From the NCBI RefSeq assembly GCF_000025305.1, contig NC_013740.1, positions 744,001 to 808,000 on the forward strand: a stretch of DNA of 64,000 bases, read 5' to 3'. Under the pieces are notes generated by a model that ran no database searches, was not told the DNA's origin, and saw nothing but the letters and a program-made list of their open reading frames with translations. Made by a program: the position numbers and the translations under genes. Positions 57,339-64,000 of the stretch are shown here, one piece after another. The DNA is from Acidaminococcus fermentans DSM 20731. GTDB taxonomy: Bacteria; Bacillota; Negativicutes; Acidaminococcales; Acidaminococcaceae. Position 1 is the stretch's first letter, and every line of letters begins with the position of its first letter.

Positions 57339-58160
57339 ATGAAAAAACTGGCACTGGTACTGGCCGGGCTCCTGGCCCTGGCCGGGATCGCCGGAGGATG
57401 CGGCAGCTCCACCGGCAGCAAACCCGCAGGGGGAGACAAGAAAGTGGTCCTGAAGGTGGGGGCTTCTCCGGTTCCCCATGCGGAAATCCTGGAAAAAGTG
57501 AAACCCATCCTGGCCAAGGAAGGGGTTGACCTGCAGGTGGTGGAATTCACCGACTATGTGAAACCCAACCTGAGCCTCAGCGACAAGGAAATCGACGCCA
57601 ACTTTTTCCAGCATCTGCCCTATCTGGAAAAGTTCTGCAAAGACCGGAACCTGTCCCTGGTTTCCCTGGGCAAAGTCCACATTGAACCCATGGGCGTGTA
57701 TTCCAAGAAAGTCAAAGACATTAAATCCGTGCCCGACGGCGCCAAGATCGCCATTCCCAACGATCCCACCAACGGGGGCCGTGCCCTGGCCATCCTGGAA
57801 AAAGCCGGACTGCTGAAACTGAAGGAAGGGGTAGGGGTACTGGCCACCGCCAATGACATTGTGGACAACCCCAAGAACCTGAAAATCACCGAAGCGGAAG
57901 CCGCCATGCTGCCCCGGACCCTGGATGATGTGGATCTGGCCGTGATCAACTCCAACTTCGCCATGGAAGCCAAGCTGAATCCCACCAAAGATGCCCTGTT
58001 CATCGAAGCCAAGGATTCTCCTTATGCCAACATCGTGGCCATCCGGAAAGGGGACGAAAACCGTCCGGAAATCCAGAAGCTGATGAAGGCTCTGAACAGC
58101 CCGGAAGTGAAGAAATTCATCGAAGAAAAATACCAGGGCGCCATCATCCCGGCGTTCTGA
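57339..58160 (+). CDS. metQ: MetQ/NlpA-family methionine-binding lipoprotein
   Basis: 273 residues: a lipoprotein signal (MKKLALVLAGLLALAGIAGG then Cys at about 21) and the NlpA domain (VGASPVPHAEILEKVKPILA, FFQHLPYLEKF, AIPNDPTNGGRALAILEKAG). It should deliver D/L-methionine to a MetNI ABC transporter, but neither metN nor metI is adjacent. ATG 57339 follows AGGGAGG; the 72-bp in-frame extension is repeat-like (GTCAACGGTCAGCGGTCAAC). No SAM riboswitch or T-box is visible in the 119-bp gap. Confidence 0.9.
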   Translation: MKKLALVLAGLLALAGIAGGCGSSTGSKPAGGDKKVVLKVGASPVPHAEILEKVKPILAKEGVDLQVVEFTDYVKPNLSLSDKEIDANFFQHLPYLEKFCKDRNLSLVSLGKVHIEPMGVYSKKVKDIKSVPDGAKIAIPNDPTNGGRALAILEKAGLLKLKEGVGVLATANDIVDNPKNLKITEAEAAMLPRTLDDVDLAVINSNFAMEAKLNPTKDALFIEAKDSPYANIVAIRKGDENRPEIQKLMKALNSPEVKKFIEEKYQGAIIPAF

Positions 58161-58163
58161 TGA

Positions 58164-58202
58164 CAAAAGAGGTGTTGCACCGGCAACACCTCTTTTGCTA
58201 TA
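58164..58202 (+). terminator. metQ terminator overlapping a promoter
   Basis: CAAAAGAGGTGTTGC pairs with GCAACACCTCTTTTG (58164-58197). The same bases hold TTGCAC (58175-58180), a 16-bp spacer and TATACT (58197-58202), a promoter for the next small gene. Confidence 0.82.
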
Positions 58203-58234
58203 CTGAAAGAAAAACTTCGGAGGCCTTATCCATC

Positions 58235-58507
58235 ATGTCCAATACCATTGTTTATGAAGACGGCACTGCATTCCACCCCGGTTCCTACCTGGAAGACCTG
58301 CTGGATGACTGGCAGATGACCCCGGCCCAGTTCGCCCACAAACTGGGGAAACCCCTGGAAACCGTGGATCAGCTCCTGGCTGGAGAAATCCCGGTGGATC
58401 TGGAACTGGCCAGCAAACTGGAAGAAGCCACAGAAATCAGCGCCGCCGCCTGGCTGAATCTCCAGTTCATGTTCGACGAAAAGGTGGAGGCGCATAAGAA
58501 GGGGTAA
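58235..58507 (+). CDS. HigA-like XRE-family protein, solitary
   Basis: 90 residues. The pattern FHPGSYLEDLLDDWQMTPAQ, then LGKPLETVDQLLAGE and AAAWLNLQFMFDEK, matches HigA/VapI antidotes of HigBA modules. No higB toxin gene flanks it (metQ upstream, a terminator downstream), so it is either an orphan antitoxin or an ordinary regulator. ATG 58235 follows CGGAGG. It has its own promoter within the metQ terminator. Confidence 0.8.
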   Translation: MSNTIVYEDGTAFHPGSYLEDLLDDWQMTPAQFAHKLGKPLETVDQLLAGEIPVDLELASKLEEATEISAAAWLNLQFMFDEKVEAHKKG

Positions 58508-58732: not shown

Positions 58733-61700
58733 ATGAACAATACCATAAACACTGCCTCTTTGTGGGAAATCCTTCAGGAGGCCCTTCTGGATCCGGATTT
58801 CTGCCAGGTTCTGGGATTCACCCGGGAACAGATGGAAGGGCAGATCCGGTCCTGCCGGCTCCAGGAAGCCTGCCCGCTGCTGGAAAACGCCCTGGATGAC
58901 CAGGGACGGTTCAACGCCGGGGTGGTGCTGGAAATTTTCCGGGGGTTCCTGCCCTCCCTGGCTGATGAGCCACCCAGAGGATGGCTCATGGACTGCTACC
59001 AGACCCTGCTCCGGAAAATCTTTCCGGAAACCACGGAACCGGAACCGGCTGCCGATGCCATCTGCTATCAGGCCGGCCGTCGGCTGCTGCTCCAGATTCT
59101 CCGGGGGCTGTACCACTACGAAAAGCTCTACTGTCCCTTTGATCCCAGGTGGAATATCGAACTGCTGTCCGCCCGTGAAATCCGGCAGGAGCACTGCACC
59201 CGGGAATATCTGCGGTTCCGCACCCTGGTCCGGGACCTGTACCTCTACGAATTCATGCGCCTGGGGACGGAAGTGACCCCCTACAACACCCTGGGTCACA
59301 TCGGGGGAGTGGCCTATGTGGCCGTCTATATGGCCCGGCAGCTCCACCGCCGGGGGGTGCCCGTGGACGTGGCCCTGATCGCCGGAGCGGCGGCCCTTCA
59401 CGACATGGGCAAATACGGCTGTAAAAAGGACGAGGAAAAGCGGGTTCCCTACCTCCATTATTACTATACGGACGTGTTCTGCGAGCGGGAAGGAGTGCCC
59501 CAGATGGGGCACATCGCCGCCAACCATTCTGTATGGGATCTGGAACTGGAGAACCTGTCCGTGGAATCCCTGCTGCTGATCTATGCGGATTTCCGGGTGA
59601 AAAGCTATCGGGATGAAAAGGGAAGGGAAATCATCCATTTCTATACCCTCCGGGAAGCTTTCGATGTGATTCTCAGCAAACTGGATGATGTGGACGGGGC
59701 CAAACGCCAGCGGTACCAGAAAGTCTATGTGAAACTGGTGGATTTTGAAGCCTATATGGAAGAACTGGGGGTCACCACCGATCTGCCGGTGGATTTTGCC
59801 CTGGCTCCGGAACGGGAACGGATCCTGCCCCATAAGGAAAAGGTGCTGATGGAGGGCCAGGAAGTGGTCCGGCAGCTGAAATACGCCGCCATTGCCCACA
59901 ACATCCGGCTCATGAGCATCTTCCGCAGCGAACGGGATTTCGGGAATCTCATCGAAGCGGCCCGCAGCGAACCCAACTGGAAAAACCTCCGGGCCTACAT
60001 CAGTATCTTCGAAGAATATTCCACCTACATGACGGAACGGCAGAAAATGATGACCCTCCAGTTCCTGTATGAGCTGCTGAGCCATCAGGAAGAGGATATC
60101 CGGGTCCAGGCCGCCGAACTGATGGGGAAGATCGTGGCCAACTTCAACGACCGGTACACCAAGGAGCTGCCCAAGGGAGTGCTGCTGCCCCGGAAAAAAA
60201 TCACCAACCGGACCCTGTTCCGCCAGTACCTGGAACAGATCATCGATCCGGGACTCCGGTACACCCAGCAGCACAAGAACCGGATCGGATCCTGCCTGGG
60301 TCCCTTTGTCCGTTCCGTGCTGGCCACCCGGTATCACCGGGTGGGGACGGCCCTGGCCAACATTGCAGAAGAGGAACATCCCACCGCTCTCTACCTGGAA
60401 ATCCTCCAGCCCTGGTACGAGAAACCGGCGGAAACGGCGGAGCAGCAGATGATCCTGCTCCAGGCCCTGCTGGCCCTCCGTCCTGAAGACCTGACGGAAT
60501 CCTTCCGCCAGGCGGTGGAGAAAACCCTCCAGAACGGGTACCGGGATCCCAGCTCCATTGTGCGGATCGGAGCCCTGTACGGGTACCATCATCTGTTCGG
60601 CGGGCCCGGGGACGAAGATGCCTTTGTCCATCGGCTGCTCCGGACCATGGATCTGCCGGAAGATCCCCGGGCTTTCGCGGAAAAGGAAAGCAGCCTGTTC
60701 CTGGAAGACCTGAAAAGCGGCATCCACTGGCTGATCAAGATCGCCAACATCCACCTGATGTGCCATGCCCTGCTCCGGCAGCAGGACAAGGGCAATGTGA
60801 TGCATCTGGGCATGCACCTGTGCAATCTGGTGAAGGTCAGCGAATATCTGGCGGTGCGCCAGGCAGCCGGGGAGGCTCTGCTCCGGATCGCCGATTCCAT
60901 GACCTGGGCCCAGCGGAACGAAATGGCCGTGGAACTGTTCAACGGACTGGAAATCGGCGACCTCCAGATCACCAAATACGTGCCGGAATACCTGGGCAAG
61001 ATGATCCTGAAACTGCTGCCGGATGAACTGGATGAATTCCTGGGGTCTCTCCGGGAAGAAATCGACTCCACCAATTTCCAGCTGGCGGGAGCGGCGGTGA
61101 ATACCATGGGAGTAGTCCTGGAGAATTTCCAGGATTTCTCCAGCCGCTTTCCCCGGGAAGAAAAGAAGAATCAGCAGCGGCAGCTCCGGCTGCTTTACGC
61201 CATCCTCCGGGCCTATGCCCACTACAACAAGGAACTGAGCCGGGACGCTTTCCGGAGTCTGGCGGCCTATGTGTTTTCCAGTTCCCGGATGCCGGCGGAA
61301 CGGAAAAGTTTTCTGTTCCTCCACAGCTTCCGGAAAATCTGGGTGCTGCTCAACGAAAACACGGAAAACATGCTGGATTTCTACACCAATGCCGGGGTGC
61401 TTAACCACCTGTACCGGTACATGGGCCAGGAAGAGACCCTCCATGGACCCTTCGTCTTTCCCAGGCAGCAGAAAGTCTGCTTCTACCCCGGCACTTTCGA
61501 CCCCTTCAGCAGCGGTCACAAGGCCGTGGCCAAACGGATCCGGGATCTGGGTTTTGTGGTGTACCTGGCCCTGGACGAATTTTCCTGGTCCAAGCATACC
61601 CAGCCCCGGCTCATGCGCCGGAAAATCATGAACATGTCCGTGGCGGACATGGAAGATATCTATCCTTTTTCGGAGAACCTGTCCGTGAACATCGCCAACC

Positions 61701-63667
61701 CGGAAGACATCCGGAAGCTGAAGCAGGTCTTTGCCCACAAGGACCTGTACCTGGCGGTGGGGTCCGATGTGGTGGAAAACGCCTCCGCCTACCGGCTGGA
61801 ACCGTCTCCGGATTCCATCCATTCCCTGAATCACATCATCTTTGAACGGGAGACCCGGGAGAATGCCAACTGGTATACTGATGCCCCGGCAGCCGTCCAG
61901 AAGAAGAAACTGGCAGAACAGCAGATCCGGGGAAAAATCCTCCATCTGAAGCTGGATAAATTTTTCGAGGATGTGAGCTCCACCCGGATCCGGGAGAATA
62001 TCGACCAGAACCGGGACATTTCCGCCCTGATCGATCCGGTGGCCCAGAACTTCATCTATGCCAACAACCTGTATCTCCGGGAACCGGCCTACAAACATGT
62101 GCTGGAAGCCCGGGAAATCGGCATCGGGGAATTCCAGCCCCGGACCTGGGCCCAGCTGCCGGCCCTCCAGAATCTCCTGGGAAATCCCGGGGCCAATCCG
62201 GTGCTCCAGCAGTATCTCCAGTGGAAAGGAGAAAACGGGCAGCCCCGGGTCTATACCCAGTATGTGGATACCGGGGAGAGGGGGGACAGTCTGGCGGCAT
62301 TCGGCGCCGTCCATCAGGTGTCCACCCGGAGCCTCCTGATGGAATTCCGGGATCCCCGGGTGGCCGAGCATATCCGGGAAGAAGCTGCCGGCCGCATTGC
62401 CTCCCTGGGCTACTTCTGCGTCAGCGGGGACAGCTCCATTTCCCATCCGGGACAGATCCTGCTGACGGAAATGATGACGGAGCTGCTGAACCGGGATTTC
62501 ACCTACGTGGTTTACCATCCGGTGGACCCTTCCGGATACAATGAAAAGGCCATCGCCGCACTGGTCCGCCAGGGATTTGTGGATATCGCCCCGGAAGGGT
62601 CGGAACACCCGCTCTATGCGGCCCACATCAATTCTCCGGTGGTGCTGTTCCGGGATGTGGAAACCACCATCAAGAATCCCTTCAACAAAAACCTGCGGGT
62701 CCAGAAAGCCCTGGACAAAGCCCACAACAACCTGCTGGCCGTGCTCCGGCAGCTGTATCCGGGGAAACTGATCCTGTCCTTCAACACCAGCGCCATGCAT
62801 TACCGGATCATCCAGAAAGTGGCCCGGCTCAACGGGGTTTCCACCCTGGAAGATCCCAAGAAGCGCCGGGGACCCTTTATGTCCGTCCCCTTCGGCAAGG
62901 CCCTCAGCGATGTGCTGGTGCCCAATACGGTGACCAAGGCTCTCCACATCGAAAAGTACTTCAACCGGGCCGTCAAGGGCTTTACCCTGGCGGAAGCCCA
63001 TCATTACGCCACCGTGGACAACCAGGTAAAGACCATCCGGTCCTTCAACCGGCCGGTGATCCTCATCGATGACCTGCTGGAAAAGGGCCACCGGATGCGG
63101 ATGCTTACCCCCTACCTGAAAAAGAACAATGTGGATGTCCGGGAAGTGCTGGTGGGGGTCATGACCGGTTATGCCATGGATCTCATGGCCCAGCAGGGCT
63201 ACCGGTGCCAGTGCGCCTATTTCCTGCCCTCCCTGGAACTGTGGCTCAATGAAAGGGACTGTTATCCCTTTATTGGCGGGGACAGCATCGACAATGCCAA
63301 CAACTACAGCGGGTACGACCGGAATCCTTCCGTGAATCTGATCCTGCCCTATGTAAAACCCGAATTCATCTGCCAGGGGAATGCGGACGCAGCCTATCAG
63401 TATTCCCTCACCTGTCTCCAGAACGCCAAACTGATCATGGAGACCCTTCAGGACGAATACCAGGCCCTGTACGAAAAACGATTGACCCTGAAGCGGCTGG
63501 GAGAAGTGATTTCCGTACTCCGGATCCCGGATATGGACATCGGGGTGAAATTCGATCCCAACATGGATCCCACCCGGTTCATTGAAAACGATATCGAACG
63601 GCTGGTCCGGCTGCGCTGGGGAGAAGCGGGCAGCGGACTGTATGACCGGAACCGGGGCGGCGAATGA
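58733..63667 (+). CDS. 1644-residue HD / HEAT-like / nucleotidylyltransferase / PRTase fusion protein
   Basis: Modules in order: an N-terminal helical region (1-180); an HD phosphohydrolase (NTLGHIGG, His189; ALHDMGKYG, His223-Asp224); a long helical, HEAT-like stretch (about 400-900); a nucleotidylyltransferase with CFYPGTFDPFSSGHK (about 916-930) and VSSTRIREN (about 1081); a GNAT-like region (about 1180-1310); and a PRTase-like segment with PVILIDDLLEKGHRM (about 1442-1456). The HD plus nucleotidylyltransferase pairing recalls nadD-yqeK, hinting at NAD or nucleotide metabolism. Large proteins annotated as cytidyltransferases exist in Clostridia and Negativicutes, but I know of no demonstrated function. 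The next gene is 28 bp away. Confidence 0.85.
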   Translation: MNNTINTASLWEILQEALLDPDFCQVLGFTREQMEGQIRSCRLQEACPLLENALDDQGRFNAGVVLEIFRGFLPSLADEPPRGWLMDCYQTLLRKIFPETTEPEPAADAICYQAGRRLLLQILRGLYHYEKLYCPFDPRWNIELLSAREIRQEHCTREYLRFRTLVRDLYLYEFMRLGTEVTPYNTLGHIGGVAYVAVYMARQLHRRGVPVDVALIAGAAALHDMGKYGCKKDEEKRVPYLHYYYTDVFCEREGVPQMGHIAANHSVWDLELENLSVESLLLIYADFRVKSYRDEKGREIIHFYTLREAFDVILSKLDDVDGAKRQRYQKVYVKLVDFEAYMEELGVTTDLPVDFALAPERERILPHKEKVLMEGQEVVRQLKYAAIAHNIRLMSIFRSERDFGNLIEAARSEPNWKNLRAYISIFEEYSTYMTERQKMMTLQFLYELLSHQEEDIRVQAAELMGKIVANFNDRYTKELPKGVLLPRKKITNRTLFRQYLEQIIDPGLRYTQQHKNRIGSCLGPFVRSVLATRYHRVGTALANIAEEEHPTALYLEILQPWYEKPAETAEQQMILLQALLALRPEDLTESFRQAVEKTLQNGYRDPSSIVRIGALYGYHHLFGGPGDEDAFVHRLLRTMDLPEDPRAFAEKESSLFLEDLKSGIHWLIKIANIHLMCHALLRQQDKGNVMHLGMHLCNLVKVSEYLAVRQAAGEALLRIADSMTWAQRNEMAVELFNGLEIGDLQITKYVPEYLGKMILKLLPDELDEFLGSLREEIDSTNFQLAGAAVNTMGVVLENFQDFSSRFPREEKKNQQRQLRLLYAILRAYAHYNKELSRDAFRSLAAYVFSSSRMPAERKSFLFLHSFRKIWVLLNENTENMLDFYTNAGVLNHLYRYMGQEETLHGPFVFPRQQKVCFYPGTFDPFSSGHKAVAKRIRDLGFVVYLALDEFSWSKHTQPRLMRRKIMNMSVADMEDIYPFSENLSVNIANPEDIRKLKQVFAHKDLYLAVGSDVVENASAYRLEPSPDSIHSLNHIIFERETRENANWYTDAPAAVQKKKLAEQQIRGKILHLKLDKFFEDVSSTRIRENIDQNRDISALIDPVAQNFIYANNLYLREPAYKHVLEAREIGIGEFQPRTWAQLPALQNLLGNPGANPVLQQYLQWKGENGQPRVYTQYVDTGERGDSLAAFGAVHQVSTRSLLMEFRDPRVAEHIREEAAGRIASLGYFCVSGDSSISHPGQILLTEMMTELLNRDFTYVVYHPVDPSGYNEKAIAALVRQGFVDIAPEGSEHPLYAAHINSPVVLFRDVETTIKNPFNKNLRVQKALDKAHNNLLAVLRQLYPGKLILSFNTSAMHYRIIQKVARLNGVSTLEDPKKRRGPFMSVPFGKALSDVLVPNTVTKALHIEKYFNRAVKGFTLAEAHHYATVDNQVKTIRSFNRPVILIDDLLEKGHRMRMLTPYLKKNNVDVREVLVGVMTGYAMDLMAQQGYRCQCAYFLPSLELWLNERDCYPFIGGDSIDNANNYSGYDRNPSVNLILPYVKPEFICQGNADAAYQYSLTCLQNAKLIMETLQDEYQALYEKRLTLKRLGEVISVLRIPDMDIGVKFDPNMDPTRFIENDIERLVRLRWGEAGSGLYDRNRGGE

Positions 63668-63695: not shown

Positions 63696-64000
63696 ATGGA
63701 AAACAACTGGCATCACATCAGCGATCTGCCCAAAGAAGCGGGGGTGGATCAGCCCCTGTCCCTGGCCGGACGGCCGGCCCTGAAGGAAAAGAACCGGGTC
63801 CATATCCTGGCCCTGGGGGATGTGGGGCGGACCATGCTCATCGGGCTCCGGCTCCTGGGAGCGGATAAAATCGCTTCCATCGGCCTTTGTGACCTGAACG
63901 AAAAGAACCTCCAGCGGCTGGAAATCGAAATCAACCAGATCCGCTATCCCTTTGCAGAAGGAGAACAGGTGCTGCCGCCGGTGGATATGGTCACCGAAGA
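63696..64000 (+). CDS. Rossmann-fold dehydrogenase-like protein (partial, 5' end)
   Basis: About 101 codons are visible before the window ends. After a short leader (MENNWHHISDLPKEAG) comes HILALGDVGRTMLIGLRLLG and SIGLCDLNEKNLQRLEIE, the beta-alpha-beta start of a NAD(P)-binding domain of the lactate/malate dehydrogenase type. AAAGGAG precedes ATG 63696, 28 bp after the large fusion gene, so they are probably one operon. The catalytic half is outside the window. Confidence 0.75.
   Translation, partial: MENNWHHISDLPKEAGVDQPLSLAGRPALKEKNRVHILALGDVGRTMLIGLRLLGADKIASIGLCDLNEKNLQRLEIEINQIRYPFAEGEQVLPPVDMVTE

Follow-up and report, generated by a model that had tools for sequence, protein, structure and literature searches.

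Does a putative paralogue of an essential NAD enzyme, travelling with two redox-type partners, one dehydrogenase-like and one a flavoprotein of the Fe-S type, point to a second NAD-like cofactor or to an NAD editing route in fermenting anaerobes? The question is raised by a cassette of three genes at the end of the window, by which we mean the whole stretch of 64,000 nucleotides analysed (G000:C1:744001-808000 of a 2,329,769-base single-contig genome). The cassette is formed by a giant gene and the two genes following it, genes 2 and 3, a point absent from the earlier note on this DNA. It is a real, widespread and tightly conserved three-gene system.

The giant protein and its modules

The giant occupies positions 58733 to 63667 of the forward strand and codes for 1644 residues, with HD, HEAT solenoid, NadD-like, GNAT-like and PRTase-like modules. 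The extent previously given for this open reading frame is borne out: the frame is intact, begins with ATG after seven further open-frame codons, and has full-length orthologues. These are present in six of the nine genomes of the genus (own genome included) and in one of 28 other genomes searched in the same family. Among 398 genomes drawn from the phylum the giant was found in eight, again counting its own (E <= 1e-20). A scan of a genome collection with two peptide patterns, in which one locus may count twice, returned 297 stretches encoding relatives, at least 80 of them distinct loci. Relatives occur across Clostridia and Negativicutes. The best 80 of the 297 stretches, all distinct loci, were taken for the locus study. 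Conservation was read from an alignment of 82 rows, the window protein and 81 relatives of more than 1000 aa, with three loci that duplicate others excluded and rows gapped at a column left out of n. Its rows reach down to about 36% identity.

In a tree of 45 rows, with a midpoint root used for drawing only, Acidaminococcus and Megasphaera fall within a clade otherwise composed of Clostridia, and Eubacterium pyruvativorans is placed beside Acidaminococcus (SH-aLRT 94). This placement suggests a transfer of the giant between the two classes, Negativicutes and Clostridia.

Two AlphaFold2 models cover residues 1-905 (mean pLDDT 87.3, pTM 0.87) and 890-1644 (mean pLDDT 83.9, pTM 0.81), each made from an alignment of 41 family rows (41 of 55, those less than 80% identical to one another). 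Together with conserved residues and profile comparison, these predicted structures support the list of modules that the earlier note had drawn up. All motifs named there are found at their positions and are conserved in the 82-row alignment, and the HD, transferase and PRTase sites, supported as homologous, are kept in most orthologues.

The nucleotidylyltransferase module is of the NadD/NMNAT type and spans aa 913-1116 (61469-62080, + strand). Residues 913-1115 match NadD/NMNAT structures (best NadD 4rpi_C, Z 17.2, rmsd 3.0 A, 184 aligned), and NadD is the closest among the folds listed by the structure search. In terms of profiles, hhalign against 10 NadD rows gives 98.5% (E 3.4e-15), and Pfam CTP_transf_like matches aa 917-1089 with 33.2 bits, the cut-off being 21. 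A transferase site had been claimed from two motifs, PGTFDPFSSGHK (aa 919-930; 61487-61522, + strand) and SSTRIREN (aa 1082-1089; 61976-61999, + strand). Both are present and near-invariant, with G920, D923, P924, H929, S1083 and R1087 in 82/82 rows each and F922 and T1084 in 81/82 each; fold and profile agree with the claim, and a NadD-like site is plausible. The module resembles NadD/NMNAT adenylyltransferases in fold and in the GxFDPxxxxH and SSTxIR motifs. It differs from them in being part of a giant chain, in a DEFSWSK motif that is invariant in the 41 rows of its own family, and in scores far below the NCBIfam cut-offs (for the equivalog TIGR00482, 36.5 bits vs 112.45).

An ordinary NadD (214.7 bits, cut-off 150), followed by YqeK, is found elsewhere in the same genome. 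All 20 carrier genomes tested, namely this one and 19 genomes of the best-80 loci, keep a NadD above the cut-off, and YqeK is present in 14 of the 14 carriers tested for it. The role of housekeeping NadD was ruled out for the giant because of these 20 ordinary NadD proteins; its nucleotidylyltransferase module is, as judged by sequence, a paralogue of NadD.

As for the N-terminal half, the model of aa 1-905 is nearly all-helical, with only two short strands. A poorly conserved helical region (aa 1-139; 58733-59149, + strand) leads to the HD module (about aa 140-345; 59150-59767, + strand), matched by Pfam HD at aa 187-281 with 22.2 bits, the cut-off being 22. An HD-bearing NCBIfam model matches all 41 family members, far below its cut-off. 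The module has the six-residue pattern H...HD...H...H...D, which diagnoses a two-metal site in HD proteins according to an excerpt of PMC8177086. The residues are H189 (79/79 rows), H223 and D224 (81/81), and H242, H265 and D286, the last three invariant or nearly so in the 82-row alignment. His189 and His223-Asp224 had been claimed as phosphohydrolase residues; their near-invariance holds, a homologous HD module is supported, and the site is plausible. The same excerpt of PMC8177086 describes an arginine three residues ahead of the first histidine in HD phosphohydrolases. This arginine was not found in the giant, position 186 being T in 68 rows, A in 6, S in 2 and L in 1 (n=78).

The H and HD motifs of the module are in register with those of YqeK in the alignment. 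When compared to 12 YqeK rows by hhalign, it gives 3.9% (E 0.011), with an unrelated NadD profile at E 0.03, and to one YqeK row 10.9%, with no clear margin over unrelated control profiles. In the NCBIfam profile search TIGR00488 (YqeK) was not among the matches listed for the giant or for its family members. On both grounds the identification of the HD module as YqeK is unsupported. Searching PDB sequences with the alignment of the N-terminal part returned no HD match, and no HD protein is among the best 50 matches of each N-terminal structure search, an absence that says little as the solenoid fills both lists.

This solenoid is of the HEAT/ARM type and covers about aa 390-905 (59900-61447, + strand), as indicated by the model and by structure matches, with Pfam HEAT below its cut-off. 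PP2A-A and karyopherins are among the HEAT/ARM solenoids to which residues 393-904 align; the best match, 8y9r_A, has Z 16.0, on a scale where the tool cautions that, for repeat proteins, Z below about 13 may reflect only a common arrangement. Foldseek with the N-terminal model likewise matches HEAT/ARM solenoids.

The C-terminal model was searched with Foldseek, whose best 50 matches include GNAT acetyltransferases (3f5b, E 2.7e-5; 4ua3; 9evq), xanthine PRTases (6w1i_B, E 2.5e-5; 2fxv; 1y0b) and also a few long, poorly fitting chains. These matches come without residue ranges, and the placing of the two modules, with approximate borders, rests on strand order and profile comparison: GNAT-like at about aa 1126-1310 (62108-62662, + strand) and PRTase-like at about aa 1311-1545 (62663-63367, + strand). 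A helical region seen in the model closes the chain (aa 1546-1644; 63368-63664, + strand).

The acyl-CoA loop of GNAT proteins has the motif (Q/R)xxGx(G/A). With the loop placed by eye, this conserved motif was not found in the giant family: positions 1238-1240 are variable, with G1240 in 25/82 rows, and Q1241 is conserved in 80/82. Pfam GNAT has no match in the giant of the window. The GNAT-like module proposed before is thus upheld in its fold, matched by the structure search, but not in its acyl-CoA loop, and since the loop is not conserved the module is probably no acyltransferase.

The PRTase-like module appears nearest to xanthine PRTase. Its stretch gives 60.9% (E 8.2e-5) against 11 XPRT rows in hhalign; Pfam Pribosyltran matches 19 of the 41 family members at E <= 0.1, and no Pfam PRTase model matches the window's own giant. 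The PRPP-type loop VILIDDLLEKGHRM lies at aa 1442-1455 (63056-63097, + strand). In the form LIDDLLEKGH, claimed earlier, it is present with a conserved acidic pair (D1446 81/82, D1447 80/82; also G1452 81/82), but its E1450 is a minority state (E in 5/82 rows, H in 74/82), most relatives having DDLLHKG. In this protein the loop has no Thr or Ser. Nine XPRT loops of carrier genomes read DDFLAxG, with Thr in 0/9 and Ser before the Gly in 3/9, and the missing Thr/Ser of the giant is not decisive because these loops are without Thr too. With xanthine PRTase, a type I PRTase, the module has in common the fold and the DDxLxxG loop; unlike xanthine PRTase, it passes no family-model cut-off and is located near the end of a giant protein. 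A PRTase-like site with a loop of the XPRT type is plausible.

Two partner genes and their surroundings

Gene 2 follows the giant after 28 bases, starting at 63696 and running off the window at 64000 (whole gene G000:C1:807696-808682, + strand, 328 aa), and gene 3 lies a further 27 bases on, past the window (G000:C1:808710-809795, 361 aa). The next gene had been said to start like an NAD(P) dehydrogenase, and profile matches make it a remote relative of the LDH/MDH superfamily: against PDB profiles it matches 4q3n (E 1.1e-8) plus many LDH/MDH, and Pfam Ldh_1_N gives 23.1 bits, below the cut-off of 27. R128, R191 and H215 are found in 79/79 rows each, and by alignment we take them to be Arg109, Arg171 and His195 in LDH numbering. 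The catalytic Asp168 and Asn140 of LDH presumably correspond to M188 and D160. The catalytic Asp was not found in gene 2, M188 being aligned at its place in 79/79 rows. In short, gene 2 is like the superfamily in its Rossmann domain, substrate Arg pair and catalytic His, and unlike it in the score below the Pfam cut-off and in the residues at these two catalytic places, so its chemistry may differ from that of LDH.

Gene 3, of the NADPH-dependent FMN reductase family, matches Pfam FMN_red with 61.8 bits (cut-off 24), and a PDB sequence search gave no match at E <= 0.01. Four cysteines, C221, C224, C229 and C238, are present in 75/75 rows with the spacing C-x2-C-x4-C-x8-C, consistent with a flavoprotein of the Fe-S type with a putative cluster. 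In a draft of Megasphaera sp. NM10 (L028:13827-14908) gene 3 is read in a pair of overlapping ORFs and may carry a frameshift.

The same two redox-type genes accompany the giant wherever the contig continues in the best-80 loci, gene 2 in 79/80 and gene 3 in 74/80. The loci missing a partner are all at contig ends (both genes in L090; gene 3 in L047, L060, L076, L078 and L100). A phyletic profile with the downstream gene had been proposed in the earlier note: genes 2 and 3 are each found in 8 of the 398 phylum genomes (E <= 1e-25), identical to the eight with the giant, and none of the 398 has just one of the trio at the cut-offs used. A separate set of 12 genomes, sharing three with the 398-genome draw, has both partners in 9/9 carriers and in 0/3 non-carriers.

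Among the eight carriers, only one draft (G384) has the giant and its partners on different contigs. There the giant is within contig C1 (C1:143021-147739, L134) and genes 2 and 3 are on C29 (C29:698-2737, L135). The three genes thus seem to stay together in a genome even where they are not neighbours. C29 opens 364 bases ahead of gene 2, and another giant missing from the assembly may lie there. A congener (G007) lacks the stretch between window position 58882 and a point 46 bases beyond gene 3, with about 50 codons of the giant remaining. Both flanks match, with about 1.1 kb extra upstream, and so this genome has lost the cassette as one unit. No constant fourth gene was seen around the cassette in clusters read by eye, shadow ORFs included.

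Neighbours beyond the trio vary between clades. They were compared across 82 loci with seed proteins by blastp, no more than two seeds per kind being set against NCBIfam. D-serine ammonia-lyase is near the cassette in 8/82 loci, a glutamine synthetase III-like protein in 8/82 and a glutamate dehydrogenase-like one in 4/82 (the last two named by eye), malic enzyme in 4/82, and a PPDK/PEP-synthase regulator immediately upstream in 5/82. L-serine ammonia-lyase is near it in L033 and also in L136, which is outside the 82. These neighbours hint at pyruvate and amino-acid metabolism. A link to the 2-hydroxyacyl-CoA dehydratases (PF06050) of amino-acid fermenters was tried and rejected, since 5/8 carriers have them as against 202/398 genomes, with no association.

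Directly next to the giant in 6/82 loci lies a sigma-54 activator whose N-terminal domain is KDD-like. This AAA+ protein directly adjoins the cassette upstream (L085:5901-7988 and L035:5863-7962; blastp-similar in L034, L037, L091 and L102), and its N-terminal 170 residues or so match L-erythro-3,5-diaminohexanoate dehydrogenase (NF052381), an enzyme of lysine fermentation, below the cut-off. An enzyme domain has seemingly been reused here as a sensor. Upstream of the giant in the window itself is a small HTH_3-like protein (58160-58507, + strand), below the Pfam cut-off, which to us is reminiscent of HigA-type antitoxins.

As for RNA elements, no riboswitch was found in the 14 loci searched, the sole element being a T-box in L095, on the opposite strand and some 2 kb beyond gene 3. 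At E <= 1e-5, none of 50,697 phage records gave a match. The plasmid collection gave one match, NZ_CP154629.1 (L125), of 2.6 Mb and labelled as an Acetoanaerobium noterae plasmid, which looks chromosomal; an origin of the cassette from phage or plasmid was rejected on these results. On this record the giant is followed by two ORFs of the size of the partner genes. With PADLOC, there is no match for the giant or gene 3 at E <= 0.01, and only one of 28 residues for gene 2 (E 0.0058).

A tentative function and its alternatives

By computation the trio forms one unit, and the chain of the giant has a NadD-type module with intact ATP-site motifs, the six-residue two-metal pattern of HD, an XPRT-like PRTase and a HEAT solenoid. 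Our preferred reading, which we put forward tentatively, is that the three proteins form a system for the metabolism of a nucleotide or dinucleotide. The PRTase module would join PRPP to a base or ring acid, or bind a 5'-phosphoribosyl compound. The NadD-like module would then transfer AMP or another NMP to yield an NAD-like dinucleotide, and the HD module would hydrolyse wrong or excess nucleotide products, as reported for YqeK with NadD. The GNAT-like domain and the solenoid would bind substrate or partners and not acylate. The proteins of genes 2 and 3, LDH-like and an Fe-S-type flavoprotein, would then either carry out redox chemistry on the product or employ it as cofactor, close to the breakdown of pyruvate and amino acids. 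Least secure in this scheme are the identity of the substrate and the idea that the product is a new cofactor. The earlier proposal that one chain could make, remodel and break a nucleotide cofactor is compatible with the sequence, and by analogy with NadD-YqeK the giant may work as a make-and-edit enzyme. Two details oppose all modules being active, because the GNAT loop is degenerate and the HD arginine is missing. In its most specific form, in which the cassette would make and use a new NAD-like dinucleotide redox cofactor, with the PRTase building, the NadD-like module joining, the HD module editing and the partners serving as redox enzymes, the proposal seems to us quite unlikely.

Several observations would also suit a role in the quality control of NAD(P), with the giant acting on NaMN/NMN or damaged NAD and the redox proteins repairing or recycling by-products. 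A NadD-HD pair has a proofreading role published in PMC9426524 (excerpt), NadD is the nearest of the folds listed to the nucleotidylyltransferase module, and the tested carriers retain their ordinary NadD and YqeK. We regard this role as somewhat unlikely: profiles do not identify the HD module as YqeK, the spread over 8/398 genomes is patchy and odd for general NAD upkeep, and a PRTase of the type I fold would be required. The fold of nicotinate PRTase differs from this type.

The degenerate GNAT loop, the missing HD arginine and the PRPP loop without Thr/Ser, together with a long solenoid of protein-binding type and the sigma-54 activator adjoining 6/82 loci, could also be taken as signs of a regulator, in which the enzyme folds, mounted on a HEAT scaffold, would chiefly serve to sense ligands and would gate the redox partners by nucleotides, PRPP or acyl-CoA. 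The near-invariance of metal-binding and adenylyltransferase residues down to about 36% identity, beyond the usual need of ligand binding, speaks against it, and this too we consider unlikely. Much further down in probability is a conflict or defence system with nucleotide modification. The patchy presence, the joint loss, a tree suggesting transfer between Negativicutes and Clostridia and a multi-domain giant with HEAT and HD would be in line with such a system, as opposed to the PADLOC result (none for the giant or gene 3 at E <= 0.01, 28 residues for gene 2), the lack of a phage match, the mostly metabolic neighbours among those that can be named, and two redox-type partners, unusual for defence. 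We hold it to be very improbable.

In terms of known systems, the preferred reading of nucleotide or dinucleotide metabolism involves modules of known kinds. Citrate lyase ligase (CitC) likewise unites a GNAT fold with a nucleotidylyltransferase fold in a single chain, with the order reversed when compared to the giant, and is not known to have an HD, HEAT or PRTase module. The combination with two redox-type partners looks undescribed, no account of it or of the giant's architecture having been found in the open-licence PMC papers searched, by title or start of abstract. An HD (YqeK) domain fused to NadD is reported, in an excerpt of PMC9426524, to proofread in NAD synthesis, the two being fused in mycoplasma and encoded as a nadD-yqeK pair in Gram-positives. 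The giant shares with that system the pairing of a NadD-type module with a six-ligand HD module and, as proposed, the make-and-edit logic (PMC9426524, same excerpt). Unlike it, the giant has an HD module that profiles do not identify as YqeK, comes with the HEAT solenoid, the GNAT-like and PRTase-like modules and the two redox-type genes, and is found in tested carriers besides their ordinary NadD and YqeK. In two carriers (G468, L140; G469, L142) ordinary NadD and YqeK are matched within a single open frame of 422-423 aa, where the housekeeping pair seems to be fused.
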